Shown here one piece after another: positions 56,172 to 60,148 of a stretch of 64,000 bases of DNA. The translations under genes were made by a program, and so were the position numbers. Position 1 is the stretch's first letter. Each line of letters starts with the position of its first letter. A model generated the notes under the pieces. The model did no database searches. It saw only the letters and a program-made list of their open reading frames with translations, and was not told the DNA's origin. Source of the DNA: Streptomyces sp. NBC_01217 (GTDB lineage: Bacteria > Actinomycetota > Actinomycetes > Streptomycetales > Streptomycetaceae); NCBI RefSeq assembly GCF_035994185.1, contig NZ_CP108538.1, positions 8,063,501-8,127,500 on the forward strand, given 5' to 3'.

Positions 56172-58307
56172 ATGCTGGATCCCGCTTCGGTGGCGGCCAT
56201 TTCGGCGGTACTCGGCGCAGTTGGATCGGGGATGGCCAACGAGGCCGGCAAGTGGGCCTGGGAGTCGACCGGCGGCGTCGTACGGAGAATCGTCGGCCGG
56301 GAGGTCCCCGCGCCCGTCGCCCCGGAGGAACGGGACGACGTGGCCCGCCTGGTCTACGAGCAGATCCGTACGAACCCGCAACTCGCCGCCTCCTGGAGCG
56401 CGTTCGCCGCACGCGTGCCCGGCAGACCCGAACGGGTGCGGTCCGTGCATTCGCATCTCCCCGTCTCCATCAGGTTTTTCACCGACCGGAAGGAGGCGAT
56501 GAAACAGCTCCAGCGGGAGGCTTCCCGCCGCGCGGACGGAAGGCCCCGGCTCGCCCTGGTGCACGGGCCGGACGGCATGGGCTCCAGCGCGCTCGCCGTG
56601 CACTTCGGTTCCAAGCCGAACAAGCTCTTCCCGGAGGGCCGGATCTACGCCGACCTCGGCGATGGAGGCGCCGGGAGCGCTCGTGACGTAGGCACCGTAC
56701 TGCGCGTACTGCTGCGCCAACTGGGTGTGCGGGACGAAGAGATGCCGACCGCGACCGACCTGCTCGGTGAGTTCTTCCGCCAGTGCACAGCGGACCGCAG
56801 ACTCCTGGTCGTACTCGACCACGCGCACTCCGCGGCGCAGGTCAGGCCGTTCCTCACATCGGCGCCCGGGGTGTTCACGATCGTCGTCGCCCGGACCCCG
56901 TTCCCCGGCCTCGACGCCGTACGGGTTCCCGTCGGTCCGCTCACGGACAGGGACGCCGTGCGTCTGCTCACCGATATCACCGACAAATCGACCGTCGCCG
57001 CGGCCCGCGCCACGCTGCCCTCGCTGCTCGCGCGATGCGGCGGATCGCCGTACGCCCTGCGCGCCGCAGCGGACCGGCTCTCCGCCCCCATGTTTTTGCC
57101 GCATCGGCCCGCGGCGGCGGACGGCGACCCGGTGCGAGGGGCGGCAGAGGACACCTACCAGCTCCTGGCGCCGGAATCCGCCAGACTGTACCGGCTGATG
57201 GCGCTGCGCGGCTGGCCCGCCTTCGACGCCGCGACGGCCGGACGGGCCACCGGCCTGGACCCGGCGGTCGCGGCGGAACTGCTGGCGGACCTCGCCGACA
57301 GGATGCTCCTGGAACACAGTCGGAGCGGATCCGGCGACGGGCGCTACCACTACCGCCCCGGGGTCCGCGCACACGCCGAGGCGACAGCGATCCGCGAGGA
57401 CGGGATCGCGGCCTGCTCCGCCGCTCTCACCCGCACACTGCTCGCCTACGCGGACCTGGCGGCATCGGCGGCGCACCAGGCACTCCCGGAGAGCTGGCGC
57501 GTCCCGGCACCCGCCGAGGACCGGATCGGACAGCGGTACGAGGACCGAGGCGCCGCACTCGACGCGCTGCTCGCGGAGCTGGGCAATCTGGTCGAGGCCG
57601 TCCGCTGTGCCGAGGAGTCCGGCGACCCCGAAACCGCCGTACGCCTGAGCCGTTCTCTGTGGCCGCTGCAGCTCAAGGCGGGCCATCACGAGATGCTGCT
57701 GCCGGCACTGCGCATCGGAGCGCGTCTCGCGGACGCCCATCTCCCGGCAAGCCCTGACGCCGGAGCACTTCATGCCCAACTGGCGCATTCTCTCACCGAG
57801 TTGGGGCGTTGGGAGGAGGCGGAGGCGGCGACACTGGCCGCGGCGCGGGCTGAGGAATCGGCCACGCACAAGCGGGGTCATGCCTCGGCCGTGGAGTTCC
57901 TGGGGCTGCTGAGGCTGCGGCAGTGGCGCTACCAGGAAGCGTACGAGTGCTTCGGCGAAGCGGGCGGCATCCTGAACACGATGGGCGCACACGACGTGGG
58001 AACCGCCGACCTGCCACGCGCCCAGGCCCTGTTGGAACGCCATCGAGGACGGGCCCTGCGCGGGCTCGGACGGGCCGAGGAGGCCCGCGAGCGACTGGGG
58101 ACGGCACTTGGCCGCTTCCGGACGAGCGGAGATACGTACAACACGGCCCGGACGCTCACCGATCTGGCGGAGACCTGGCTGGACGCAGAGGACATCGAGG
58201 CGGCACTGCCGCTGATCGACGAGGCGATCACGACACTGGACGGCCAGCGCGCGGAGTACCACCTGTCGTACCTGCGGCGCATGAGGGAACGCTGCGTCAC
58301 TCCGTAA
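56172..58307 (+). CDS. STAND-like NTPase with TPR-like tail and degenerate P-loop
   Basis: 711 residues. A short N-terminal region with a glycine-rich helix (VAAISAVLGAVGSGMANEAG) precedes an NB-ARC-like domain. The P-loop reads LVHGPDGMGSSALAVHFG, lacking the Lys of GxxGxGKT/S; Walker B-like RLLVVLDHAHSA and a GxP-type CGGSPYAL motif follow. The C-terminal 300 residues are TPR-like helices (AQLAHSLTELGRWEEAEAA, LRQWRYQEAYECF). STAND proteins are signal-gated switches; the missing Lys suggests weak or no ATP hydrolysis. GGGGAG precedes the ATG. The stop overlaps the convergent gene by 11 bp. Confidence 0.8.
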   Translation: MLDPASVAAISAVLGAVGSGMANEAGKWAWESTGGVVRRIVGREVPAPVAPEERDDVARLVYEQIRTNPQLAASWSAFAARVPGRPERVRSVHSHLPVSIRFFTDRKEAMKQLQREASRRADGRPRLALVHGPDGMGSSALAVHFGSKPNKLFPEGRIYADLGDGGAGSARDVGTVLRVLLRQLGVRDEEMPTATDLLGEFFRQCTADRRLLVVLDHAHSAAQVRPFLTSAPGVFTIVVARTPFPGLDAVRVPVGPLTDRDAVRLLTDITDKSTVAAARATLPSLLARCGGSPYALRAAADRLSAPMFLPHRPAAADGDPVRGAAEDTYQLLAPESARLYRLMALRGWPAFDAATAGRATGLDPAVAAELLADLADRMLLEHSRSGSGDGRYHYRPGVRAHAEATAIREDGIAACSAALTRTLLAYADLAASAAHQALPESWRVPAPAEDRIGQRYEDRGAALDALLAELGNLVEAVRCAEESGDPETAVRLSRSLWPLQLKAGHHEMLLPALRIGARLADAHLPASPDAGALHAQLAHSLTELGRWEEAEAATLAAARAEESATHKRGHASAVEFLGLLRLRQWRYQEAYECFGEAGGILNTMGAHDVGTADLPRAQALLERHRGRALRGLGRAEEARERLGTALGRFRTSGDTYNTARTLTDLAETWLDAEDIEAALPLIDEAITTLDGQRAEYHLSYLRRMRERCVTP

Positions 58308-60148
58308 GCCCTCTTCCCGGTGGTGTCAGAGGCGCGACCTGTACGCGGTGCAGCCGATCGCCTGTCCGTACGGAGAGCCCGTCGGTCACGACGCGCGCGA
58401 GCCGTTCGTCGGCTGCGGTCGCGTCGGGGCCGCCGGTGGTCAGCCAGGCGTACAGGGCGGAGGCACACGCGGCGGGGTCCACGCCGGACACATCCTCCGC
58501 ATCAGCGCCGGGCGCCGCAGCCATCCGGAGCGGCTCTTCGCCACGCACCCGGACCACACACGCGGACGGCCCGGTCACATAGGCCGCAAGGGAACAGCCC
58601 GGATGGCGCCGGAGCACCTCGGCGGTCCAGATGGACGTGGACCCGAAACGCGGATCGTCGGGTGCCCCGTCACGGAAGATGACATCGGCCAGATCCAACT
58701 GGTCCACCTCACGGGTGTCCTCGTGCACGGCGACATGCAGCTCCTCGTCGTGAGCCGATCCCGTACACGGCCGAGCGCTCGCCCAGCGACTGACCGCGAC
58801 CTCTCCGGGACCGAGGACCCGTGACCGCACGTGCAACGGGACGGTGGCCTTTCCGGCCTCGTGTTCGGGCAGCGGGAGAGGCTTCAGGGAAGCCGGCCCG
58901 TCGGGCTCCGGCGCGCCCAGCATCGAGTAGAAGAGCCGACGCAACCGGACCGCGGATTCGCCGGGCACGGAGGTGGTGAACTCGGCGGGCCCCGGCAACG
59001 GCCTGTGACGGCCGATGAGTCCCCCGATCTGCGCCGCCAGTGACGCGTCGGGTTCGAGCCGAGGTGCCTCCCTGATGAACGCGGAAATCGGCGCATCGGG
59101 ATCGAGGGCGTCGAGCGGCGCGGCCCCCAGGAGCACGGGAGTGCCGAGGGCGGCCGCGTAATAGGTGACGGAACCGTGGTCCCCGATCACCGCATCGGCG
59201 GCCAGCAGGGCCTGCCGCCACCCCTTCAGCGGATCGATCAGCGCCAGCCCGGCGCGTCGCGCGCGATCGAGCCAGGCGCGGATCTGACCGGGCCCGTGGC
59301 CGTACCAGATGTTGGGGTGCAGCACGGCGGCGAACCGATACTCGTCCACGGGGAACTCGGCGGCGACCCGGTCCAGCAGCGCGGCGACGACATCGCCGCC
59401 GCCCGGGCCGTCACCGAAGAGCGACTCGGAGCTCCAGGTCGAATTGAGAAGCACCAGCTGCTGACCCGGCCGTATCCCCAACGCCCGGCGGAAGCGCTCG
59501 CGGTAGGGCCGGGCGGCGAGTATCCGGTCGAAGCAGGGGTCTCCGGCGAGTACGGCGGTGGGCGCTGCCTCCGGGCAGGCGACGCGAAGCCGCTCGTGCT
59601 GTTCGGGATGGGAGAGGACCAGTGCGTCCGCGACAGGAGCGCCCCGCGACAGAAGCCACTCCGGCGCAAGCCCGAAGACGGGCGCAGGCACCGCCGCCGC
59701 CCCCGCCCCCGACCCGGTGTCCGGTGTCCGGTGTCCGGTGTCCGGTGTCCGGTGTTGCCAGCCTTTTAGTGTACCCAACACCGTGCGAAAGGATGGCCAG
59801 CTTCCCGGAAAATGCTTCCAGTTGGCCGCCGAAGCTGGCGGAGATCACCAGATCCACCGGTGTCTCGGCCGCCTGCTCCCACGGCAGGACCGGCACCCCG
59901 GTGTCGGCCAGCAGCTCGGCCGTGCCGGCCGCGAAGGCCGAGGAGCCGGTACAGGTGGCCAGCAGCTGGACACGCCAGCCGTCGTCGAACAAGGGCAGCA
60001 CGTCGAGCAGTCGGGTCGCGGCGGTCACGTTGTGTACGACGACGAGGACCCGCAGACACTTCCCCCGCGTCGCCCACCGGGCCGCGTCATCGCCCACCGG
60101 CACCCGCACCCAGCCGGCCCGCCCGTGCTCCATCCGTACGCCCTTCAT
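58297..60148 (-). CDS. Glycosyltransferase-like (CDP-glycerol transferase fold) protein, split by a 7-bp repeat; probably phase-variable
   Basis: The front part (60148 to about 59760) reads CLRVLVVVHNVTAATRLLDVLP, DLVISASFGGQLEAFS and ILSHGVGYTKRLA. The rest, in another frame (about 59760 to 58297), reads PVFGLAPEWLLSRG, VLSHPEQHERL, VLLNSTWSSESLFG, VLHPNIWYGHGPGQ and VIGDHGSVTYYAAALGTPVLLG. Together they make one protein of about 610 residues of a Streptomyces family with a teichoic-acid-type glycerophosphotransferase fold. The break falls exactly in six tandem copies of CCGGTGT (59714-59755). Deleting one copy, or adding two, would restore one frame. As drawn, the full protein is not made. 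Confidence 0.75.
59714..59755 (+). repeat. Heptanucleotide tandem repeat, (CCGGTGT)x6, inside a coding region
   Basis: Six exact copies, 42 bp, in the plus-strand reading; on the coding strand it encodes the alternating PDTGHRT-type loop. Seven is not a multiple of three, so each change in copy number shifts the frame. Five or eight copies would put the front and back halves of the glycosyltransferase-like gene in frame; six do not. Confidence 0.92.

Follow-up and report, generated by a model that had tools for sequence, protein, structure and literature searches.

A heptamer tandem array as a putative frame switch in the gene of a predicted TagF-like enzyme of Streptomyces

A stretch of 64,000 nucleotides from the genome of Streptomyces sp. 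NBC_01217 (contig NZ_CP108538.1, positions 8,063,501 to 8,127,500; in the following called the window) contains a gene on the minus strand that is broken into two half-gene frames by a short tandem array. In the orientation of the gene the unit is ACACCGG. Tandem Repeats Finder gave the array a score of 84 at a match of 100%, and its exact string and extent were verified separately. The six exact copies of CCGGTGT that the initial annotation had placed at the junction of the two frames are indeed there (Table 1). The front frame starts with an ATG at 60148, runs through the array, continues in the wrong frame and ends with a stop codon at 59411, and the back frame is open from a position 5′ of the array down to a stop codon at 58297. 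A comparison with the starts of homologues revealed that the true start of the front half is more likely at 60133 than at 60148. The annotated gene covers only the back half (P0001, 464 amino acids). Two sequence anchors, SHGVGYTK and SHPEQ, are 151 nt apart in the window, which is 1 modulo 3, and therefore the two halves are out of frame; the arithmetic of the initial annotation, that the loss of one copy or the gain of two would join them, was right. The chance of such a run is about 1e-12 per 9 Mb for a simple base composition, real genomes being richer in repeats, and a search for three tandem copies of the unit, with one mismatch allowed, found no second site in the 9.03-Mb genome of the strain. 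Very probably the array is a slipped-strand frame switch in the gene of a predicted TagF-type GT-B enzyme.

The prediction of the enzyme is based on the homologue P0002, which is 85% identical to the back half. Its predicted model (mean predicted local distance difference test score, pLDDT, of 73) has a GT-B fold that matched TagF, and the fold comparison also returned TarL and UDP-GlcNAc 2-epimerase. The product is thus a predicted GT-B enzyme that resembles TagF-type teichoic-acid polymerases. The earlier description as glycosyltransferase-like holds at the level of the fold, but no Pfam family was hit above its cut-off: P0002 scored 12.3 bits for PF04464 (E 0.08), compared to a gathering cut-off of 22.1, and the enzyme was therefore not classed as a member of this family. 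It differs from TagF, TarL and PF04464 in that the identity is only 11–12%, it has an extra C-terminal region, and UDP-GlcNAc 2-epimerase ranks equally high. The linker that the array encodes connects the two GT-B domains and is predicted to be poorly ordered, and for that reason in-frame alleles could be functional despite large differences in length.

A protein database search with the back half yielded 1023 homologues. Among 120 homologues listed, 82 had at least 550 amino acids, 2 had 500–549, and 36 had fewer than 500; the latter mostly begin at or after the array. Orthologous loci (type 1) were retrieved from two samples and parsed between both anchors. The genus sample comprised 392 genomes with 89 matches at E <= 1e-80, 83 of which were parsed. 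The family sample of 297 genomes contributed 54 further matches (E <= 1e-89) from genomes not in the earlier sample, and 45 of these were parsed, so that the pooled set contained 128 parsed orthologues, with 15 unparsed loci outside the counts. At least three exact copies in the gap between the anchors were counted as an array. Genes with both halves in frame are called ON, the others OFF. A third, named-genome set consisted of the best 80 of 176 loci (L001-L080); it is biased to ON genes and overlaps the other samples. Nine of the 17 genera that were sampled within one family contained the gene (E <= 1e-60).

Six unparsed loci belonged to the genus sample: L170 contains a transposase gene, L137 and L156 have deletions into the array, L107 and L116 are cut by contig ends, and L117 has a variant motif, lacks an array and is in frame. 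Seven of the nine unparsed family-sample loci have a variant SHPxQ anchor; six of them carry 7-bp arrays (two OFF), and the seventh is ON without an array. The other two, L224 and L231, were unreadable. In L170 (genome G009) the transposase gene, resembling an insertion sequence, lies beside a 13-copy array in the enzyme gene. In L137, L156 and L185 deletions end at the array and have removed coding sequence 5′ of it or near the start, and it looks as if the arrays also promote deletions.

Arrays were present in 110 of the 128 parsed orthologues (69/83 in the genus sample and 41/45 in the family sample). The 7-bp CCGGTGT repeat of the initial annotation is correct for the window, but the unit of the relatives is neither always 7 bp long nor always of the same sequence. 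The unit lengths, for the genus and the family sample, respectively, were 7 bp (59 and 36 arrays), 8 bp (3 and 3), 10 bp (6 and 0), 4 bp (0 and 2), and 6 bp (1 and 0). Accordingly, the unit length is indivisible by three in 109 of the 110 arrays; the single 6-mer (L082) is a G+C tract adjacent to the site. The copy number varied from 3 to 33.7 in the genus sample (median 5.9; 25 unit sequences), and the pooled set contained 34 unit sequences. In the presence of an array, 27/69 genes of the genus sample and 17/41 of the family sample were OFF (44 OFF and 66 ON in total), while without an array only 1/14 and 0/4 were OFF. This difference in the out-of-frame share was significant for the pooled set (Fisher p 0.003) and for the genus sample alone (p 0.028). 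The proposal that the gene is phase-variable was therefore supported: the opposite case, a fixed copy number in a gene that is always broken, was excluded by copy numbers from 3 to 34 and by 66 of 110 array genes being in frame. In the named-genome set, 66 of the 80 loci had arrays and 9 were OFF; period-7 arrays were found 61 times in 11.5 kb of junction sequence, compared to twice in 745 kb of flanking DNA.

A conserved element at the DNA level precedes the array. A or T is rare in the third codon positions of these genes (10–11%), but several rare codons are fixed 5′ of the array, namely CAA (71/71) or GAA (45/45) at codon -20, TTG at codon -12 (116/127), ACT (53/61) or AAT (55/63) at codon -2, and AGG or AGA at codon 0 (77/83). 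The window has CTG instead of the usual TTG at codon -12, and the TACACT box is present. The motif TANNNT, which spans codons -3 and -2, was found in 108/110 orthologues with an array compared to 2/18 without (Fisher 2e-16). The association was retained in independent tree pairs (7–8 to 0, median p 0.008), and in the overlapping named-genome set the values were 65/66 and 2/14. An A at position -58 is less tightly linked to the array (108/110 versus 13/18; pairs 3–4 to 0, p 0.125). The array starts at a median of 8 nt 3′ of the Lys codon that follows the box, which is about where a transcript from the box would begin. A convincing -35 element matching the TANNNT box was not found in type 1. It is tempting to speculate that the back half might be transcribed from the box as an internal promoter, or that the box acts in cis to create or maintain the array. 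Judged from the distribution of both among the orthologues, array and box appear to be gained and lost together.

Twenty more distant matches (37–49% identity) form two other subfamilies. Type 2 (TPHGAGYNK) has 7-bp arrays at the same site in 11/11 loci, with 6.7 to 33.7 copies; 5 loci are ON and 6 are OFF, TAYAAT is present in 11/11, and TTGG at a distance of 17 nt in 5. In type 3 (VVAARTVTS) the 7-bp array lies 5′ of the start codon in 8/9 loci (L180, L181, L183-L185, L187, L189, L190), and one array is joined to a truncated gene. In an additional type 3 locus (L212:13457-13827) an array of 53 copies begins 22 bp upstream of the start. By eye, a promoter-like pair TTGNNN-17-TARNNN was recognized 5′ of the array in six type 3 loci.

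The arrangement of type 3, together with the fact that the array follows the conserved TANNNT box, would fit an array that mainly tunes the length of the linker or acts as DNA, e.g., via promoter-proximal spacing, frame changes being a by-product. A repeat that tunes a linker is expected in multiples of three, and thus linker tuning is unlikely: in all but one of the 110 type 1 arrays and in 11/11 of type 2 the unit is not such a multiple. Of the alternatives to a frame switch this one keeps the largest share of probability, which is nevertheless small.

If the array were a mere mutation hot spot, the OFF alleles would be ordinary pseudogenes, and the broken copies would be in the process of being lost. 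Decaying loci do exist, as exemplified by the short back frames of L163, L169 and L269, the insertion in L170, and the deletions at the array edge of L137 and L156. However, 42 of the 44 OFF array genes (26/27 in the genus and 16/17 in the family sample) were otherwise open through the conserved parts of both halves, as far as they had been fetched, the exceptions being L169 and L269. The back frame is also short in L163, the sole OFF gene that lacks an array; an out-of-frame gene is thus found only once among the 18 array-free orthologues. The median ratio of nonsynonymous to synonymous substitutions (dN/dS) to the nearest relative was 0.193 for OFF genes (n=28) and 0.201 for ON genes (n=54; p 0.39), pairwise dN/dS being blind to a very recent loss of function. 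OFF alleles were thus mostly intact in the parts read, apart from the frame, and under purifying selection.

In a tree of 82 genus-sample rows, OFF genes were scattered: the ON/OFF state required 23 changes, compared to 23.7 for shuffled labels. In stark contrast, the unit sequence required 21 changes compared to 40.4, and none of 200 shuffles was as low; 18 rows with rarer units had been left out of this test. The array unit is inherited, while the frame is not. Nineteen close pairs with arrays were compared, the pairs beyond those given here being the same loci from another collection. In 7 of 8 non-redundant pairs that differed in array length, the difference was a whole number of units: one unit in L077/L088, L106/L108 and L013/L074, each of which pairs an OFF with an ON allele, three units in L030/L168 and L031/L033, six in L042/L048, and nine in L061/L064. 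In two of the seven pairs the unit sequence also differs. Thus, one pair excepted, ON and OFF alleles that differ by whole units occur among relatives. Taken together, it is very improbable that the OFF alleles are pseudogenes.

No more credit is due to the idea that the frame is irrelevant, i.e., that the two domains are made separately, the front half from its own start and the back half from an internal start or from the embedded promoter, and assemble whatever the copy number is. The break does lie between two domains, the back half is annotated as a gene of its own, and a -10-like box is present 5′ of the array. If the frame were irrelevant, one third of the array genes would be expected to be in frame, but 42/69 were ON in the genus sample (p 4e-6), and the array-free genes were in frame in 17 of 18 cases. 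Lastly, short reads can miscount tandem repeats, but assembly artefacts are a negligible explanation of the copy numbers, as a six-copy array has only 42 bp, which should be under the usual read length, OFF genes were equally common in near-complete assemblies (13/30) and in others (14/39; p 0.62), and length differences between close relatives were exact units in all but one pair.

The TANNNT box and the neighbour of the enzyme gene are two features that go beyond the initial annotation. The neighbour is a convergently oriented gene that encodes a TPR-containing STAND-type NTPase. In the window this gene overlaps the enzyme gene by 11 bp at the stop codon of the latter, and its true start is likely further downstream than 55947. 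A homologous convergent neighbour was present in 74 of the 80 type 1 loci of the named-genome set, and in 64 of them the stop codons are at most 100 nt apart. In 9/9 OFF loci of this set the neighbour is long (697–897 amino acids, simple open reading frame call), which makes it improbable that the enzyme serves as an obligatory antidote to it. Some strains may contain several modules of enzyme and NTPase/TPR genes; in the three regions examined (L210-L212) each paralogous enzyme gene is convergent to its own NTPase/TPR gene, with adjacent modules in one genome. NB-ARC scored above the cut-off in 4/6 NTPase/TPR neighbours of paralogous enzymes. PADLOC gave no match for P0002 or the NTPase neighbour up to E 0.1. 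The convergent gene is likely a functional partner of the enzyme.

Heptamer arrays also appear to be more widespread in some Streptomyces genomes, as AGCCGGG arrays of at least four copies were present in 36/150 genomes. When such arrays lie outside the enzyme family, the box was found at the distance described above in 0/23 cases, compared to 98/107 within the family. Other short tandem repeats of the window are located at 3619-3678 and 15518-15544 (25 bp x 2.4 and GCGACG x 4.5, respectively).

Table 1. Features of the split gene and its surroundings in the window, and AGCCGGG loci outside the enzyme family
Feature	Position	Strand	Remark
Tandem array, six exact ACACCGG units (CCGGTGT on the plus strand), at the frame break	59714..59755	minus	proposed slippage switch
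Front half, N-terminal Rossmann-like domain, open	59756..60148	minus	likely start ATG 60133, from homologue starts
Back half, C-terminal GT-B domain and C-terminal region, open	58297..59713	minus	stop codon 58297-58299
Wrong-frame extension of the front product when six copies are present	59411..59713	minus	product of 245 amino acids from ATG 60148
TACACT, promoter -10-like hexamer in coding sequence	59768..59773	minus	Tyr-Thr with rare ACT; separated from the array by 12 nt
Rare CAA codon (codon -20)	59822..59824	minus	within the conserved DNA element that precedes the array
Convergent STAND-type NTPase with TPRs	55947..58307	plus	TPR_12 above cut-off, AAA_16 below
Family-free AGCCGGG loci	L270-L275, L277, L279-L284, L286, L288-L291, L293-L296, L298, L299

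The following mechanism is proposed. Whenever whole 7-bp units are added or removed, the reading frame of the back half would be joined to, or separated from, that of the front half. The copy changes would arise by replication slippage, which may be frequent enough to generate mixed populations. OFF cells would be devoid of the enzyme, the nucleotide-binding half being lost. If the enzyme acts in building or modifying a glycan of the cell wall, switching would alter the hyphal surface, and phage adsorption would be the most likely selective force. The embedded -10-like box might start transcription at the array, and thereby favour slippage or provide a promoter for the back half. As far as comparative genomics can tell, the locus is in all likelihood a contingency locus that is widespread in Streptomyces and related soil bacteria. 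A bolder proposal, which we regard as doubtful, is that filamentous actinomycetes possess two-gene modules of a TagF-like switch enzyme and a convergent STAND NTPase/TPR protein, in some strains several per genome, in which a dedicated TANNNT box, preserved by rare codons, sets the array at a transcription start and drives or licenses slippage, the birth of the repeat is itself selected and encoded in cis, and the randomised surface glycan serves as bet-hedging against phages.

Several observations weigh against a frame switch in this gene. Switching within a strain is a prediction from differences between genomes, and both the activity and the surface role of the enzyme are predicted from its fold. 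The stretch of low pLDDT also includes part of the conserved motif 5′ of the array. Eighteen of the 128 parsed orthologues have no array of at least three copies, and therefore the gene can do without the switch. L163, L169 and L269 look like decaying genes, and the three unparsed loci with an insertion or array-edge deletions (L170, L137, L156) are broken for other reasons. Five close pairs have arrays of equal length, and in L254/L255, with a 4-bp unit, the length difference is not a whole number of units. Furthermore, 24 of 30 sampled AGCCGGG loci lack the family motif within about 1.5 kb, and the family-free arrays lie inside (12) or between (11) crudely predicted open reading frames, showing that slippage-prone heptamers are not confined to the enzyme family.

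Most of the known contingency loci that are driven by repeats come from host-adapted pathogens, and the present case would extend them to antibiotic-producing soil bacteria. It would be a possible explanation of why colonies differ in their sensitivity to phages, and many "hypothetical" or truncated gene calls would become ON and OFF alleles of one enzyme. The joint gain and loss of an array and a small DNA box would also constitute a natural experiment on the birth of repeats. A report of heptamer phase variation in Streptomyces was not found in searches of an open-licence library, and the examined parts of a frame-transition survey of 1106 genomes (PMC3711429) do not mention the enzyme family. 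According to a section of a 2025 review on phase variation, gaps are expected to be filled for ocean and soil bacteria (PMC11868660).

The initial annotation knew of no simple-sequence contingency locus established in Streptomyces, and this was wrong. Passages of two articles (PMC4365076; PMC6625227) describe that pglX of Streptomyces coelicolor A3(2) is phase-variable via a G-tract, and the former gives frequencies of 1e-2 to 1e-4. The two cases are alike in that phase variation is attributed there, too, to a change in the length of an intragenic repeat. In contrast, pglX has a homopolymeric G-tract, encodes a methyltransferase of another protein family and lacks a heptamer array. The locus was also considered as a member of the Pgl/BREX systems, which was rejected in view of the heptameric repeat and the missing PADLOC match. 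The NTPase neighbour is reminiscent of the NTP-dependent conflict systems of multicellular bacteria, for which PMC7159879 describes STAND-type NTPases in Streptomyces, some of the systems having glycosyltransferase domains; the terms "phase variation", "tandem repeat" and "frameshift" are absent from the main text of that article.

A simple-sequence contingency locus of pathogens is lic2A of Haemophilus influenzae with its CAAT tetramers (title in the reference list of PMC6625227). The array described here shares with such loci intragenic tandem units that are not divisible by three, so that whole-unit changes shift the frame. Glycan enzymes are among the targets of pathogen contingency loci. 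Unlike these, however, the present array occurs in soil actinomycetes of high G+C content, it consists of heptamers (or of units of 8, 10 or 4 bp) with a lineage-dependent sequence, it is located in an interdomain linker, and a conserved DNA box lies beside it.

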